Source: Candidatus Polarisedimenticolaceae bacterium
Lineage (GTDB): Bacteria; Acidobacteriota; Polarisedimenticolia; Polarisedimenticolales; DASRJG01
Length of the DNA: 64,000 nt
Assembly (NCBI GenBank): GCA_036275915.1
Contig: DASUCV010000004.1
Location: 327,238-391,237, forward strand
Reading direction: 5' to 3'
The position numbers were made by a program, and so were the translations under genes. Positions 1,649-29,610 of this stretch are shown one piece after another. Position 1 is the stretch's first letter. Each line of letters begins with the position of its first letter. The notes beneath the pieces were generated by a model. The model did not search any database. It was not told the DNA's origin and saw nothing but the letters and a program-made list of their open reading frames with translations.

Positions 1649-2712
1649 TCTTCCCGGAGATCCTCGGCGCCGCGTCCCCGCGCGAGGTGCTCGCGCGCAT
1701 GCTCCTGTCCGGCCGCGTCCCCCACGCCCTCCTCTTCCACGGCCCCGAGGGTGTCGGCAAACGGACGGTGGCCGAGCGGTTCGCGGTCTCGCTCCTGTGC
1801 GAGTCGCCGGGCGAAGACGGCGCCGCCTGCGGACGCTGCGCCGCTTGCCGGAAGGCCGGGCACGGGAACCACCCGGACCTCCTCGTCACGACGCGCCTCC
1901 CCAAGGCGGCCGCCAAGGAGGCCGCGGCCGACGGCGACGACGAGCCCGAGACCGGCGAGGGGGGCGACCTTCGCGCCTGGATCGTCGTCGAGCAGATCCG
2001 CGCCCTCACCGAGCACGCCGCGTACGCGCCCCGCGAGGCGCGGTCGCGTGTCTTCCTCGTCGATCCGGCCGATCGCATGAACCCGGCCGCGCAGAACGCG
2101 CTCTTGAAGACGCTCGAAGAGCCTCCCGGACGCGCGGTGATCATCCTCGTCGCGTCCCGTCCGCACGTGCTCTTCCCCACCGTGCGCTCGCGTTGCTTTC
2201 AGCTCGGCTTCCCGGCGATGGCACCCGCGGCGCTTGCCTCGGCGCTCGCCGCCCGCGGCATGCCGCCGGTCGAAGCAGGTGCGCGCGCGGCGCTCGCCGA
2301 GGGCCGGCCGGGACGCGCGCTGACCCTGGACCTCACGGCGGCGGCGGAGCGGCGCGATGCGGTCCTCGCCATGCTCGAGTCGCTCACCGCCTCCCGCGAT
2401 GGGCTCGCCGGCATGCCTTCCTTCGTCGACGGGCTCGTCGGCGAGGAGGAAGCGACGATGCTCGAGGGGCTCGAGCTCGTGGAGGCGCTCCTGCGCGACG
2501 CGGCACGTCTGGCGTCCGGGTCGAGATCGGTGCTCCACACCGACGTGGCCTCGCGTCTCGCGCGCCTCGGCGGCACGCTGGGTTTCGCGCGTGCGGCCGA
2601 GCTGTCGACGCTCGCCGATCGCTTGCGCTCCGATCTGCGGTTCAACGTGAACAAGACCCTGCTCGCGGAGACGCTGCTCGCCGCCGTCGCGGGAGGCCCG
2701 GTCCCCGCCTAG
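1645..2712 (+). CDS. holB: DNA polymerase III delta' subunit
   Basis: Clamp-loader subunit of the replicative polymerase. The AAA+ P-loop GPEGVGKR is at residues 33-40, followed by a four-cysteine zinc module (CESPGEDGAACGRCAAC), NHPDLLV, and LLKTLEEPPGRAVIILVAS around the sensor region. An acidic Ala/Glu-rich insertion sits between the zinc module and the IVVEQIRAL segment. The GTG start overlaps tmk by four bases, continuing the ribF-tmk-holB chain. The stop lies in the same CTAG as the stop of the opposing gene, leaving no space for a terminator. Confidence 0.93.
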   Translation: MIFPEILGAASPREVLARMLLSGRVPHALLFHGPEGVGKRTVAERFAVSLLCESPGEDGAACGRCAACRKAGHGNHPDLLVTTRLPKAAAKEAAADGDDEPETGEGGDLRAWIVVEQIRALTEHAAYAPREARSRVFLVDPADRMNPAAQNALLKTLEEPPGRAVIILVASRPHVLFPTVRSRCFQLGFPAMAPAALASALAARGMPPVEAGARAALAEGRPGRALTLDLTAAAERRDAVLAMLESLTASRDGLAGMPSFVDGLVGEEEATMLEGLELVEALLRDAARLASGSRSVLHTDVASRLARLGGTLGFARAAELSTLADRLRSDLRFNVNKTLLAETLLAAVAGGPVPA

Positions 2713-4037
2713 CGCGTCAGCCAAGCGACGGCCTCGACGTGCGCCGTCTGCGGAAAGAGATCGAACGGGGTCACCCGCAGGAGCCTGTAGCCCGCGCGCG
2801 CGAGGCCGAGGACGTCGCGCGCGAGCGTCGCGGGATCGCACGACACCAGCGCGATCCGGCCCGGTGCGAGCCGCGCGATCCCCTGCGCGACGCCGCGGCC
2901 GAAGCCCGTGCGCGGAGGATCGGCGACGAGGAGATCGGCCGCCGGCGCCGTCTCGAGGAATTCACCCGCATCGCCGCGCACGAATCGGGCGCTCGCAACG
3001 CCGGCCCTCTCGGCCGCATCTCGACCGCACTGCACCGCGGCCGCATCCGCTTCGACGATCGTCACGTGCGCGCCTCGCCGGGCGAGCGCAAGCCCGAACC
3101 CGCCGACGCCCCCGTAGAGCTCGACGACCGAGGCGACTCCCGCCGACGCATCGAGCAGATGACGTCCGAGCAGATCGGCGGCGCGCGGATGCACCTGGAG
3201 GAAGGTGCCGGCGGGAACCCGGAAGGACGTCCCGAGGATCGTCTCCTCGATCCACGGCCGGCCGGCGAGCGTGATCGTCGATGCCCCGCCGCGGCGCCCG
3301 GGCGCCGCCTTGAGGGCGACGACGCCGGTCAATCCCCGCTCGCGAGCCATGGCGTCCCGGGCGAACGCCGAGAGCGTCGCCGCGGGCGAGGCGCCTCCGA
3401 AGAATGCGATGAGCCGATCCGCACCCGACGTCGACGCGCGGAACGCCACGCGCTCCGGCGGCGCTGCCCTCCGATCGTCGAGGAAGAATGCCCGGACGAG
3501 ATCGACGAGCGGACCGAGGCGCGGATCGGCGATGGCGCAGGCGGGCACGTCGACGACACTCGCATCGCCGGCGGAGTGGTAGCCGAAGACCCGCCGATCG
3601 GATGCATCCCGGCCGAACACCATCTCGATCTTGCCTCGGTAGCCGAGCCATGGGCGCGGCGCCTCGATCGGATCCACCGGGGGGTCTTCGATCTTCGCGA
3701 TCCGCTCGAGCGCGTCGACCACGAAACGCCGCTTGGCCTCCCGCTGATCGTCCTCGCCGACCGGCATGAGCGGGCATCCGCCGCAGCTCTCCTGCACGGG
3801 GCACGGGGTCGCACGCCGGGCCGGCGAGGGCAAGGAGATCGACCGGGCGATCGCCTCGACGAATCGGCCGCGGTCCCGCCGGATCTCGGCCTGGACCGTG
3901 TCGCCCGGAACGGCGCCCGCGACGAGCACGACGCGCCCCTCGTGACGAGCGATCACCCGGCCCCCGGCCGCCCATCGGTCGGGAACGACCTCGATGACCC
4001 CCAGGTTTTGGGCCTCTGACTCCGTAGGACGCGACAT
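2709..4037 (-). CDS. RumA/TrmA-family RNA (uracil-5-)-methyltransferase
   Basis: S-adenosylmethionine-dependent methylation of a uridine in rRNA (RlmCD/RumA type) or less likely tRNA. An N-terminal TRAM-like beta-barrel is followed by an iron-sulfur motif (CPVQESCGGCPL), a Rossmann domain with VVELYGGVGGFGLALA, a DPPRTGFG substrate loop, the catalytic cysteine in VSCDPATLARD and the C-terminal HVEAVAW glutamate. I chose the ATG at 4037 over a GTG seven codons upstream because it begins just before the TRAM sequence; neither has a strong ribosome binding site. The gene converges on holB and follows a 500-base non-coding gap that may hold its leader. Confidence 0.88.
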   Translation of the reverse strand: MSRPTESEAQNLGVIEVVPDRWAAGGRVIARHEGRVVLVAGAVPGDTVQAEIRRDRGRFVEAIARSISLPSPARRATPCPVQESCGGCPLMPVGEDDQREAKRRFVVDALERIAKIEDPPVDPIEAPRPWLGYRGKIEMVFGRDASDRRVFGYHSAGDASVVDVPACAIADPRLGPLVDLVRAFFLDDRRAAPPERVAFRASTSGADRLIAFFGGASPAATLSAFARDAMARERGLTGVVALKAAPGRRGGASTITLAGRPWIEETILGTSFRVPAGTFLQVHPRAADLLGRHLLDASAGVASVVELYGGVGGFGLALARRGAHVTIVEADAAAVQCGRDAAERAGVASARFVRGDAGEFLETAPAADLLVADPPRTGFGRGVAQGIARLAPGRIALVSCDPATLARDVLGLARAGYRLLRVTPFDLFPQTAHVEAVAWLTR

Positions 4038-4051
4038 CTGGTATTTTCTTG

Positions 4052-4080
4052 TTGACACGTCCGGTGTGTGCGGTTAAGGT
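4052..4080 (+). promoter_or_regulatory. Sigma-70-type promoter reading into the intergenic region
   Basis: TTGACA at 4052-4057 is separated by 17 bases from TAAGGT at 4075-4080. The -35 box is perfect and the spacing ideal. Transcription would start near 4087 and run through the inverted repeat at 4129-4310, away from the methyltransferase and antisense towards the aroC 3' end. No protein gene lies in that direction. Confidence 0.5.
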
Positions 4081-4128
4081 CGGGGCGCGTTCGGCACGGC
4101 TGTCTTGGATGGAGTGGCAATGAAGGCG

Positions 4129-4310
4129 TCTTCGGACGTTGCTCGCTCTCCCCGGCGGAGGGTCATCCCAAATCGACTCGACCCGCCAATATCCATCTTC
4201 CGGTCCCGCGATCCTCGGGCCCGGGAGGTCGGCCAATGTGTACCCACCCCTGGTATCTCGACCCGTGCCTGGGAATCCCGATACCGGGGAGAGCGAGCAA
4301 CGCCCGAGGA
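4129..4310. ncRNA. Candidate structured RNA of about 182 nt, strand undecided
   Basis: A perfect 19-base inverted repeat (4137-4155 and 4284-4302; arm CGTTGCTCGCTCTCCCCGG) extends outward past one A-C mismatch by seven more pairs (4129-4135 with 4304-4310). It encloses 128 bases with an internal hairpin (4247-4257 with 4280-4289) whose right arm overlaps the first six bases of the long right arm, so the two folds exclude each other. Plus-strand transcription has the promoter at 4052-4080; minus-strand transcription has a TAGAAT box at 4316-4311 immediately before the stem but a poor -35. Size and long terminal stem resemble 6S RNA in outline, but I could not match its conserved bases. Confidence 0.5.
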
Positions 4311-4538
4311 ATTCTACACCGCCTGATCTCTGATTCCGTCCAACCGTCTTTCCGCAGAATCAGTCCTCTAAAAGTCAGAATGCGTCCACATCGGGTGCTT
4401 TACGCCCCCAGGGGTCAAGCGTACATCTTTCGGCGGTCCCTGGGTTTCGGGGGAGGCCAGTGGACCTCTTGGGGGCCGCGGGGCGCTGGGCGAACCGGGG
4501 GGTAATCGCAGGCGCTTCCGCGGCTCCGTCTTTCCGGA

Positions 4539-5714
4539 TCAGTAGGCGCGAAGCCGGGCCTCGTAGGCGTCGAGATTGGCTCGCAGCTCCGCCACCGAAT
4601 CCCCTCCCAGCTTCTCCAGCAGCGCATCGGCGAGGACGATGGCGAGCATCGCTTCACCCACGACGCCCGCCGCGACGATCGGAATGGTGTCCGTGCGCTC
4701 GACGTCGGCGACGAACGCTTCCTTCGTGACGAGATCGGCCGAGGGGAGCGCGCGCGGGATCGTGGCGAGCGGCTTGAGCCAAGCGGTGAGCCGGACCGGC
4801 TCCCCGTTCGTGATCCCCCCTTCGATGCCGCCCGCGCGGTTCGTCCCGCGGGCAAAGCGCCGTCCCACGGCGTCGTAGGCGATCGCGTCGTGCGCGGCCC
4901 GCCCGCCGCCGGCGGCGACCTCGATTCCTCCGCCGATCGAGACCGCCTTCACGGCCTGGATCGACAACACGGCACCGCCGAGGCGGGCGTCGAGGCGCCG
5001 GTCCCAGTGCACGTGGCTGCCGAGCCCCGGCGGCACCCCGCGCGCGATGATCTCGAACGATCCGCCGACCGAATCGCCCGCGCGCCGGGCGTCGTCGACC
5101 GCCCGGATCATCGCCTCGATCGTCGCAGTGCGCGGCGATCGCATCGGCAGGTCGTCGGCGAGCGCGAACACGGCGTCGAGATCGTCGCCCTCGTCCGGTG
5201 CCGCGACAGCGGCGCCGACGGCGAGCGTCCGGCTCGTGACGTGAATGCGCGCCGTGTCGAGCAGGGCCTTCGCGAGCGCACCCGCGGCGACACGGGCCGC
5301 TGTCTCGCGCGCGCTCGCTCGCTCGAGGATGTCGCGCGCGTCGTACGTTCCGTATTTCAAGGCCCCGGCGAGATCCGCGTGGCCGGGACGCGGCCGCGTG
5401 ATCGCACGCGCGGCGCCGCCTTCGGGTGGCGCGCCTTCGGTCGCCATGACCTCGGACCAGTTCGCGTGGTCACGATTGCGAATGAGGAGACTCACCGGCG
5501 ACCCGAGCGTGCGCCCGTGCCGGACGCCGCCCAAGAGCTCGACCGTGTCCGACTCGATCGCCATGCGTCCACCGCGTCCGTAGCCGCCCATGCGGCGCCT
5601 GAGCTCGCGATCGATCGCCGCGCGCGCGACGGGCACGCCCGAAGGGAGTCCTTCGACGATCGTGGTGAGCGCGGGGCCATGCGACTCGCCGGCGGTGAGG
5701 AAGCGGAACGGCAT
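4539..5714 (-). CDS. aroC: Chorismate synthase
   Basis: Last step of the shikimate pathway: 5-enolpyruvylshikimate-3-phosphate to chorismate, using reduced FMN. The N-terminus FRFLTAGESHGPAL, the RPRPGHADLAG segment, the ERASARETAARVA segment and TNRAGGIEGGITNGEP are characteristic. I place the start at the ATG at 5714, giving the standard MPFRFLTAGESHGP N-terminus; a GTG six codons upstream would add residues no homologue needs. The gene is divergent from nnrDE with under 50 bases between starts. Confidence 0.94.
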   Translation of the reverse strand: MPFRFLTAGESHGPALTTIVEGLPSGVPVARAAIDRELRRRMGGYGRGGRMAIESDTVELLGGVRHGRTLGSPVSLLIRNRDHANWSEVMATEGAPPEGGAARAITRPRPGHADLAGALKYGTYDARDILERASARETAARVAAGALAKALLDTARIHVTSRTLAVGAAVAAPDEGDDLDAVFALADDLPMRSPRTATIEAMIRAVDDARRAGDSVGGSFEIIARGVPPGLGSHVHWDRRLDARLGGAVLSIQAVKAVSIGGGIEVAAGGGRAAHDAIAYDAVGRRFARGTNRAGGIEGGITNGEPVRLTAWLKPLATIPRALPSADLVTKEAFVADVERTDTIPIVAAGVVGEAMLAIVLADALLEKLGGDSVAELRANLDAYEARLRAY

Positions 5715-5761
5715 GGCGTGCGACGTTACCACGCCCGCCGCGCGCTGATATCGTGAGGCCG

Positions 5762-7342
5762 ATGGAGATCTTGACCGGATCGCAGATGCGCCGGGTCGAC
5801 GCCCGGGCGATCGAAGAGCGCGGCATCCCCTCGATCGAGCTCATGGAAGCGGCGGGCGGAGGGGTCGCCCGCGCCATGCTCGAGGAGATCCCGGGACTGA
5901 GAGAGCGGCGGGTGGTCGTGCTCTGCGGAAGGGGAAACAACGGCGGCGACGGGCTCGTGGCCGCGCGGCACCTCGCAGCGGCGGGCGTCCCCGTCGAGAT
6001 CGTCCTCCTGGCGACCGCCGACGCGTTGAAGGGCGACGCCGCCGAGAACGCCCGCCGAGCGCGCGCCGCGGGCCTCGCCGTGCGTGAGATTCCCGACGAG
6101 GCGGCATGGAAGGGGGCGGCGCTCGACGCGGGCCCGGCGGACGTCGTCGTCGACGCCATCTTGGGAACCGGCGTGACGGGAGGGGCGCGGGGCCTCGCGG
6201 CCGTCGTCATCGAAGCGTCCGGCGCGTGGCCCGCGACCTTCGTGTCGATCGACCTGCCGTCGGGCGCCGACGCCGACTCCGGAGAACTCCCCGGCCCCGT
6301 GCTGCGCGCCCATCGCACCTACACGCTCTGCCGTCCCAAGCTCTGCGTCGTCCTCGAGCCGGTCGCGAGCCACGCGGGACCGTTCCGCGTGATCGACATC
6401 GGGATTCCCGGCGACGCGATCGGCGCGGAGAGATCCGATCTCTCGTGGATCGACGCGGAAGCGGCCGCAGCGCTTCTCCCTCCCCGCCCACGGGGCGCTC
6501 ACAAGGGGACGATGGGGCATCTCCTCGTAGCCGCCGGGTCCCGTGGAAAGTCCGGAGCCGCGTCGCTCGTCGCCGAGGCGGCCTTGCGCTCGGGGGTGGG
6601 ACTCGTCACCGCCGCGGTGCCGCGCGGCGTCCAGGACGTCGTCGCCGCCTCGCGAGCCGAGGTGATGACCGAGGGCCTCGCGGAAACGCGCGCGGGAACC
6701 CTCGCCGCGCCGGCGGCGGCCGTTCTCCTCCGCCTGTCGTCGAGCTGCTCCGCCCTCGCCCTCGGGCCGGGGCTCGGCCTCGCGAGCGCGGCCGGAGCGG
6801 TCGTCCGCACCGTTCTGGCGCGGCGCGCGCTACCCATGGTTCTCGACGCCGACGGCCTCAATGCGATCGCCGGGCGGCGCTCCCCGGCGCCGAAGCACGC
6901 GCTCGTCGTCACCCCGCACCCCGGTGAGGCGGCGCGTCTCCTGCGGACGACCGCGGCCGCGATCCAGAGCGATCGTCTCGGCTCGGCGCGACGGCTCGCC
7001 GCCCTGACGGGCGGGATCGCCGTCCTCAAGGGGCGCCGCTCGATCGTCGCGAGACCGGAGGGTGGCGCGGCGTTCATCGCGAGCGGCAACCCGGGCATGG
7101 CGACCGGAGGGAGCGGGGATGCCCTGACGGGGGTCATCGGAGCTCTCCTGGCCCGTCGCATGGAGCCGTTCGACGCGGCGGTCCTCGGGACGTACGTTCA
7201 TGGCGCGGCAGGCGATTTCGCCGCCGCGCGGCTCGGCGAGGAAGGAATGCTCGCCGGCGACATCATCGCCTCCCTTCCGGAGGCCTGGCGTGCGCTGGCG
7301 GCGGTGCGGGACGAGGGGCGGCGGTGGACACGAGGGGTGTGA
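5762..7342 (+). CDS. nnrDE: Bifunctional NAD(P)H-hydrate epimerase/dehydratase
   Basis: Repairs hydrated NAD(P)H: the N-terminal YjeF_N domain epimerises the hydrate and the C-terminal ribokinase-like domain dehydrates it with ADP. GNNGGDGLVAARHL marks the epimerase half; LALGPGLG, VVTPHPGEAARL and GMATGGSGDALTGVIGALLAR mark the dehydratase. The length of about 526 residues fits the fused form. The ATG at 5762 matches the usual N-terminus; a GTG at 5753 is an alternative. The 3' end overlaps tsaE by 19 bases, a common pairing. Confidence 0.93.
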   Translation: MEILTGSQMRRVDARAIEERGIPSIELMEAAGGGVARAMLEEIPGLRERRVVVLCGRGNNGGDGLVAARHLAAAGVPVEIVLLATADALKGDAAENARRARAAGLAVREIPDEAAWKGAALDAGPADVVVDAILGTGVTGGARGLAAVVIEASGAWPATFVSIDLPSGADADSGELPGPVLRAHRTYTLCRPKLCVVLEPVASHAGPFRVIDIGIPGDAIGAERSDLSWIDAEAAAALLPPRPRGAHKGTMGHLLVAAGSRGKSGAASLVAEAALRSGVGLVTAAVPRGVQDVVAASRAEVMTEGLAETRAGTLAAPAAAVLLRLSSSCSALALGPGLGLASAAGAVVRTVLARRALPMVLDADGLNAIAGRRSPAPKHALVVTPHPGEAARLLRTTAAAIQSDRLGSARRLAALTGGIAVLKGRRSIVARPEGGAAFIASGNPGMATGGSGDALTGVIGALLARRMEPFDAAVLGTYVHGAAGDFAAARLGEEGMLAGDIIASLPEAWRALAAVRDEGRRWTRGV

Positions 7343-29308: not shown

Positions 29309-29384
29309 TGGTGGAGCTGAGGGGGATCGAACCCCTGACCTCATGACTGCCAGTCATGCGCTCTCCCAGCTGAGCTACAGCCCC
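29309..29384 (-). tRNA. tRNA-Ala (GGC)
   Basis: The 76-base cloverleaf is complete with an encoded CCA end. The acceptor stem GGGGCTG/CAGCTCC includes the G3-U70 wobble that identifies alanine tRNA. The anticodon loop CTGGCAG carries GGC. Confidence 0.96.
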
Positions 29385-29513: not shown

Positions 29514-29610
29514 GGAAGCGGATGGGGCCCGGTGGCCCTCCCGGTCTTCAAAACCGCGTGTCGGGCGGTTCTCCGTCCGGGGTGGGTTCGACTCCCACGC
29601 GCTTCCGCCA
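29514..29610 (+). tRNA. selC: tRNA-Sec (UCA), selenocysteine tRNA
   Basis: Carries serine that SelA converts to selenocysteine, delivered by SelB to UGA codons. The 97-base molecule has GGAAGCG/CGCTTCC in the acceptor stem, a six-pair D stem (GGGGCC with GGCCCT) closing a four-base loop, anticodon loop CTTCAAA with TCA, a long variable arm (CGGGCGG TTCT CCGTCCG) and a five-pair T stem, ending GCCA. These are the hallmarks of bacterial tRNA-Sec. The eighth acceptor pair appears to be G-G. The next gene starts ten bases downstream without a terminator. Confidence 0.95.

Follow-up and report, generated by a model that had tools for sequence, protein, structure and literature searches.

The window, by which we mean the whole 64,000-nucleotide stretch of DNA analyzed here, contains a 498-base gap between the rRNA methyltransferase gene rlmD and the chorismate synthase gene aroC, and within this gap lies one conspicuous inverted repeat (Table 1). 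Its 19-nt arms (4137-4155/4284-4302) are perfectly complementary, enclose 128 nt and form part of a duplex of 27 positions (4129-4155/4284-4310) with 25 Watson-Crick pairs, one U.G pair (4131/4308) and one A.C mismatch (4136/4303). Among perfect inverted repeats of 14 nt or longer whose arms are at most 300 nt apart, this one is unique in the 64 kb window, and none of 2000 dinucleotide-Markov versions of the gap exceeded an inverted repeat of 15 nt. An earlier note on this stretch had judged the repeat and its longer stem to be far beyond chance, and these results bear that out. Compared with shuffles the element folds with a z of approximately -6, plus and minus strands alike. The rlmD gene is oriented divergently from the putative promoter of the element, and adjoins the element in nine of the ten genomes in which we found it; in the tenth the contig ends.

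Table 1. Features of the rlmD-aroC region (positions refer to the window unless a locus is named)
Feature	Position	Strand	Basis
rlmD, RlmD/RumA-family 23S rRNA (uracil-C5) methyltransferase gene	2709..4040	-	NCBIfam TIGR00479 rumA, 226 bits over cut-off; Pfam tRNA_U5-meth_tr and TRAM
-35 box TTGACA of the putative RNA's promoter	4052..4057	+	Same sequence in 10/10 genomes
-10 box TAAGGT (family TANGGT)	4075..4080	+	TANGGT in 10/10; spacer 17 here, 18 in all others
P1 closing stem, 5' arm	4132..4155	+	24 model pairs
P2 hairpin, GGGTC 4160-4164 / GACCC 4180-4184; loop is the counterpart of the family loop RCCCGACCTCGA	4160..4184	+	Sequence, folds; covariation in relatives
P4 variable-sequence hairpin (CCATCTTCCGGTCCCG / CGGGCCCGGGAGGTCGG)	4193..4232	+	Alignment, folds
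Conserved C-rich junction segment; GACCCGTGCC at 4260-4269 invariant in 10/10	4242..4273	+	Alignments
P1 closing stem, 3' arm	4284..4307	+	Same 24-pair model
-10-like TAGAAT box abutting P1	4311..4316	-	TAnnnT in 7/10 genomes
Direct repeats AATCAGTCC / AATGCGTCC, 21 bp apart, 5' of second promoter	4358..4387	+	(A/G)ATCnGTCC arrangement also in G001, G003, G005, G007, G009
Second putative promoter, TTTACG-17-TACATC	4399..4427	+	TTTACN-17-TA-box in G000, G001, G003, G005, G007, G009
Short variant of the second candidate structured RNA, with conserved GAACCGGGGGGT loop	4428..4535	+	Longer terminator-bearing form in five relatives
Second RNA loci (candidate), window and relatives	4358-4535; L047:1161-1354, L011:1709-1880, L013:1688-1893, L014:991-1188, L023:532-726	+ (window)	
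aroC, chorismate synthase	4539..5732	-	NCBIfam and Pfam; adjoins the locus in 7/10 genomes

When the gap was compared with related genomes by BLAST, homologues were confined to members of the order Ca. Polarisedimenticolales (class Ca. Polarisedimenticolia, phylum Acidobacteriota), from which the window itself comes. A covariance model of the element built from nine homologues (R1) found one strong copy (138-188 bits) in every one of the order's ten sampled genomes, which span three families, and recovered the copy of G003 that had been left out of model building. Outside the order, R1 gave no match in 31 other genomes of the class Ca. Polarisedimenticolia and no credible match among approximately 385 others in a 396-genome sample of the phylum, and none of 20 loci examined upstream of the methyltransferase in other orders carried the element; the reach of these negatives is set by Infernal's stricter filters and the choice of conserved pattern, and very divergent relatives could escape. 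A match in G044 from the phylum sample (27.7 bits) lay within a 643-aa reading frame and was treated as chance, and a weak second match in G002 (contig C79) was rejected. When 84,980 species genomes were scanned for a pattern, the matches included 'Candidatus Polarisedimenticola svalbardensis', 'Acidobacteria bacterium Mor1' and four further bacterial genomes; an archaeal pattern match (L065) scored only 4.6 bits and was rejected. The viral contigs searched held no match.

Pairing was assessed in an alignment of the ten homologues (A4). The closing stem P1 (24 pairs) and the hairpin P2 (5 pairs) together form standard pairs in 91.5% of the cells, as against at most 52% when the partner is slid by one to three columns. 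Ten of these pairs are changed on both sides, and the covariation score of 0.198 (versus 0.107 ± 0.015) was reached by 0 of 500 shuffles, although such shuffle counts are, by the tool's own warning, not to be read as probabilities. For P1 alone 95.8% of the cells are paired and seven pairs are changed on both sides; 14 of its 24 pairs never vary, so that constraint acts on the sequence of P1 and not on its pairing alone. The alignment of the gap across relatives and the covariation test that the earlier note had called for thus revealed conserved paired positions with compensatory changes in both P1 and P2.

Inside P1 the order of parts is CGGA, P2 with its loop RCCCGACCTCGA, P3, a CCYRCCT linker, P4 and the segment CCYACCGYTGGAGTCTYGACCCGTGCC. 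P3 is found in eight of the ten genomes and is missing from the window's own family within the order. The sequences of P3 and P4 are unrelated between genera while the hairpins themselves persist, and the linkers are conserved. Fixed single-stranded motifs are GACCCGUGCC, CCYACC and, in most cases, ACCUCGA, and the conserved single-stranded motifs are C-rich (the P2 loop, CCYRCCT and CCYACCG..GACCCGUGCC). GACCCGTGCC occurs in every genome and CCYACC in nine of ten, G001 having the variant CCACCC, whereas ACCTC in the P2 loop occurs in eight and is lacking from the window and G002. The length of the element varies freely among homologues, including steps that are not multiples of three, and so does its interior sequence.

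An inner hairpin mutually exclusive with the long stem had also been proposed. In the window this hairpin (4248-4257/4280-4289) does overlap P1 as described, but its conservation across the ten genomes is only partial: 66% of the cells pair, two of its ten pairs are changed on both sides, its covariation score was reached by 2 of 500 shuffles, and it is essentially absent from G006 and G008. A conserved, family-wide switch is not supported by these data; in some species the inner hairpin may form as a short-lived intermediate while the RNA is being transcribed.

Both promoter-like signals noted earlier, a near-consensus promoter on the plus strand and a -10-like box abutting the stem on the minus strand, were confirmed at the sequence level. 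The plus-strand arrangement TTGACA-17/18-TANGGT is present in all ten genomes, where the CTCTC of P1 follows it after 65-105 nt. Its boxes are kept although the spacers have diverged, as has the leader that separates the promoter from P1; at the 20 methyltransferase loci examined in other orders, where the element is also missing, no TTGACA-TANGGT lies upstream of the gene. The minus-strand TAnnnT box lies 2-6 nt outside P1, is extended -10-like and occurs in seven genomes, which is more than expected from the background of TAnnnT in the flank (approximately 0-13% per 15-nt window). These seven coincide exactly with the set of genomes in which aroC is the neighbor. In G002, G004 and G005, which have another neighbor instead of aroC, the minus-strand box is gone and the element and its plus-strand promoter remain. 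We found no -35 box for the minus-strand signal.

Chiefly because TTGACA-17/18-TANGGT is kept in ten of ten genomes, we regard the plus strand as probably the transcribed one. Read on this strand, G.U outnumbers A.C by 14:5 in the inner hairpins and by 9:7 in P1, an asymmetry that by itself falls short of significance (p 0.06, uncorrected for relatedness) and becomes weaker when P2 is counted. On the plus strand, four of the seven four-base hairpin loops read UUCG or GCAA; on the minus strand none is GNRA or UNCG. The conserved loops are C-rich on the plus strand and purine-rich on the minus strand; purine-rich loops are frequent in tertiary-structured RNAs. No consistent plus-strand terminator follows P1 in the homologues, and the terminator scan was uninformative on strand, as approximately one third of plus-strand shuffles also gave a match. 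In the seven genomes with the TAnnnT box, a minus-strand transcript starting at P1 is possible.

Several known identities were considered and rejected. The Rfam search suggested in the earlier note (6S, Acido-1, Acido-Lenti-1 and others) gave no match for the window and eight homologous loci, either at the gathering threshold or at E up to 10. For 6S RNA (RF00013) in particular, cmscan of 3900-4600 returned nothing up to E 10, and a canonical 6S RNA is encoded elsewhere in every member of the order, in the window's genome at G000:C18:160985-161166 (L054; 90.6 bits). The likeness to 6S RNA that had been pointed out holds for length and for the long terminal stem, but not for identity. As a separate observation on these 6S loci, a simple search for TTG-type promoters was negative immediately upstream of seven of the eight loci examined, and the 6S RNAs of the order may be processed from longer transcripts. 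A divergent SRP RNA or RNase P RNA was rejected since both are present elsewhere in all eight genomes tested. Acido-1 (RF01686) and Acido-Lenti-1 (RF01687) matched neither the element nor its homologues; like the element, both were predicted in Acidobacteriota as non-coding RNAs and have no known function (PMC2864571), but they are Rfam families to which the element does not belong. The absence of an encoded protein, also part of the earlier reading, agrees with a 145-aa plus-strand ORF without protein family match (NCBIfam, Pfam) and with the variation of the homologues in length and interior sequence. An origin as a mobile repeat (REP/MITE) or from phage was rejected on account of one full copy per genome and no viral matches, and the degenerate mobile repeat considered earlier is refuted by the single copy, the fixed synteny and the lack of scattered copies.

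Judged from comparative sequence data, the element is an undescribed structured RNA family specific to the order Ca. Polarisedimenticolales and no chance hairpin. The suggestion of a lineage-specific regulatory RNA is supported insofar as the paired positions are conserved, the promoter is present in ten of ten genomes, Rfam holds no match and the family occurs in one order only. With moderate confidence we favor the reading that the element is an independently transcribed, order-specific structured RNA, most likely acting in trans through its C-rich loops. For its transcription, strand, processing and mode of action we infer the following. A sigma-70-type promoter belonging to the RNA would drive its transcription on the plus strand, with a start at about 4087, and the long, largely sequence-fixed P1 would enclose a junction bearing the small P2 plus one or two further hairpins that vary (P3, P4). 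P1 would trim and protect the ends of the RNA through RNase III-type processing. Processing at P1, for example by RNase III, is suggested because no consistent terminator follows, and because the stem is sequence-fixed and the 5' leader unconserved the mature RNA may be cut out at P1. The exposed C-rich motifs would act in trans, either by base pairing to mRNAs, at G-rich sequences or ribosome-binding sites, or by binding a protein.

There is precedent for such a mode of action. In Xanthomonas, the repression by sX13 of mRNAs that carry G-rich motifs requires its C-rich loops and can do without Hfq (PMC3771888). The element is similar to sX13 and to RNAIII of S. aureus in being highly structured with C-rich loops on stable stems (PMC3771888, PMC2837412), in the proposed pairing to G-rich or ribosome-binding sites and in having no obvious Hfq-type tail, and it shares with C-rich-loop sRNAs an own promoter (ten of ten genomes) and conserved C-rich motifs that are predicted to be accessible. 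However, sX13 is an open three-hairpin RNA whereas everything in the element is enclosed by a 24-pair, largely sequence-fixed stem, and no sequence homology links the element to such sRNAs (no Rfam match).

C-rich pairing in particular is a tentative proposal as the mode of action. ACCTC is part of the anti-Shine-Dalgarno sequence, but since the window's genome and G002 lack this motif, a reading by anti-Shine-Dalgarno-like pairing is moderate at best. When the complement of GACCCGTGCC was searched (as GGCACGGGTCNAG), the only occurrence common to all genomes was the element itself. A 22-nt perfect match to window 4259-4280 is present at G000:C4:688170-688191 (L004:1501-1522), where the complement of the RNA's most conserved segment lies approximately 37 nt before the ATG of a DUF4388 gene. 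This site is not conserved in nine orthologues (kept in 0/9 relatives) and was rejected as a conserved mRNA target. Because complements are not conserved beyond the element, a protein-binding RNA is about as plausible as an antisense RNA. Along these lines the element could, though we consider this rather doubtful, belong to a new, housekeeping-like class of structured RNAs, kept throughout the order without known exception, with the sequence-fixed duplex as a protein-binding platform instead of an antisense carrier and with the tandem locus of two RNAs beside rlmD perhaps linked to control of the ribosome or of translation.

The main competitor places the function on the other strand. The element would then be a cis-acting 5' leader of rlmD, transcribed from the -10 box beside P1, with the ribosome-binding site after the fold and control by a ligand, a protein or autoregulation. 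The constant position upstream of rlmD, as expected for a riboswitch or autoregulatory leader of an RNA-modification gene, is in line with this, as are a TAnnnT box that is rare in the surrounding flank, the purine-rich loops and a minus-strand fold as stable as that of the plus strand. However, three genomes without the box keep the element, and a perfect promoter of opposite direction lies between element and rlmD in all ten, where it overlaps the rlmD start, transcribes away from rlmD and is followed by no plus-strand gene in the window. Moreover, the UUCG and GCAA loops and the G.U excess favor the plus strand, and the fixed neighborhood is explained by the location of the plus-strand promoter at the rlmD start. 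The earlier idea of a leader of the rRNA methyltransferase gene is thus right about the neighbor, but the promoter pointing away makes it a weaker alternative, which we consider unlikely. A combination of the two strands, in which the plus-strand structured RNA would, with aroC next door, meet a minus-strand rlmD mRNA with a fully antisense leader and cause mutual silencing or interference, would account for the joint presence of both promoter signatures in seven genomes. Yet both members of a functional antisense pair should be under constraint, while the minus-strand box has been lost in G002, G004 and G005 and has no detectable -35 partner, and we regard such convergent overlap as improbable.

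Two further explanations appear far less probable still. 6S RNA is a rod with a large central bubble that mimics an open promoter, binds RNA polymerase holoenzyme and templates pRNA. The element resembles 6S RNA and Ms1 in its length (approximately 180 nt), single copy, intergenic location and long closing stem; on the other hand its interior is multi-branched, with a junction of P2 and variable hairpins in place of the central bubble, no covariance model matched it at E 10, and the canonical 6S RNA is found elsewhere in all members of the order. A 6S-like or Ms1-like RNA that binds RNA polymerase is therefore hardly credible. A DNA-level element without RNA function, i.e. a palindromic protein-binding site or a cruciform near a divergent promoter, could explain why the 14 invariant pairs of P1 show sequence conservation beyond pairing. 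It is very improbable given the compensatory changes in P1 and P2, the inner hairpins that are replaced and yet re-formed, the retained loop motifs and the dedicated promoter.

The element gives a poorly studied order a well-defined RNA family that is absent from Rfam and present in every sampled member. Its retention in all ten of these genomes, drawn from three families, points to a real fitness role. To our knowledge few non-coding RNAs have been described in Acidobacteriota, and the closed genome of Acidobacteria bacterium Mor1 among the carriers makes this family open to direct testing.

The interval between the element and aroC contains a second conserved plus-strand arrangement, with (A/G)ATCnGTCC repeats 21 or 22 bp apart, a promoter of the form TTTACN-17-TAnnTT and a transcript predicted to be structured. 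In G003, G004, G005, G007 and G009 this second RNA contains CCGGGGGG and GTNGCCCACCTCCC..GGGAG followed by an intrinsic terminator, its conserved features being the CCGGGGGG loop and the GCCCACCTCCC hairpin. A model of it (R2) gave strong matches in these five relatives, and no other match exceeded 34 bits; a shorter variant, missed by R2, is present in the window and in G001, and G006 and G008 lack the second RNA. Comparison with Rfam gave no identification. We consider this second locus a candidate plus-strand structured RNA gene, and with it the region would constitute a small RNA island.

Two minor observations concern the surroundings. In G004 and G002 (L011, L012) the protein encoded after the RNA locus begins with MEILTGEQMRRVD, like that of the window's ORF 5753-7342, and this shared start suggests that aroC was lost or moved from between the RNA locus and that ORF. 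Elsewhere in the window, a tRNA-Sec (72.4 bits; 29514-29606, plus strand) lies near another tRNA on the opposite strand (29312-29384, minus strand), and because of this tRNA-Sec the window's genome probably uses selenocysteine.
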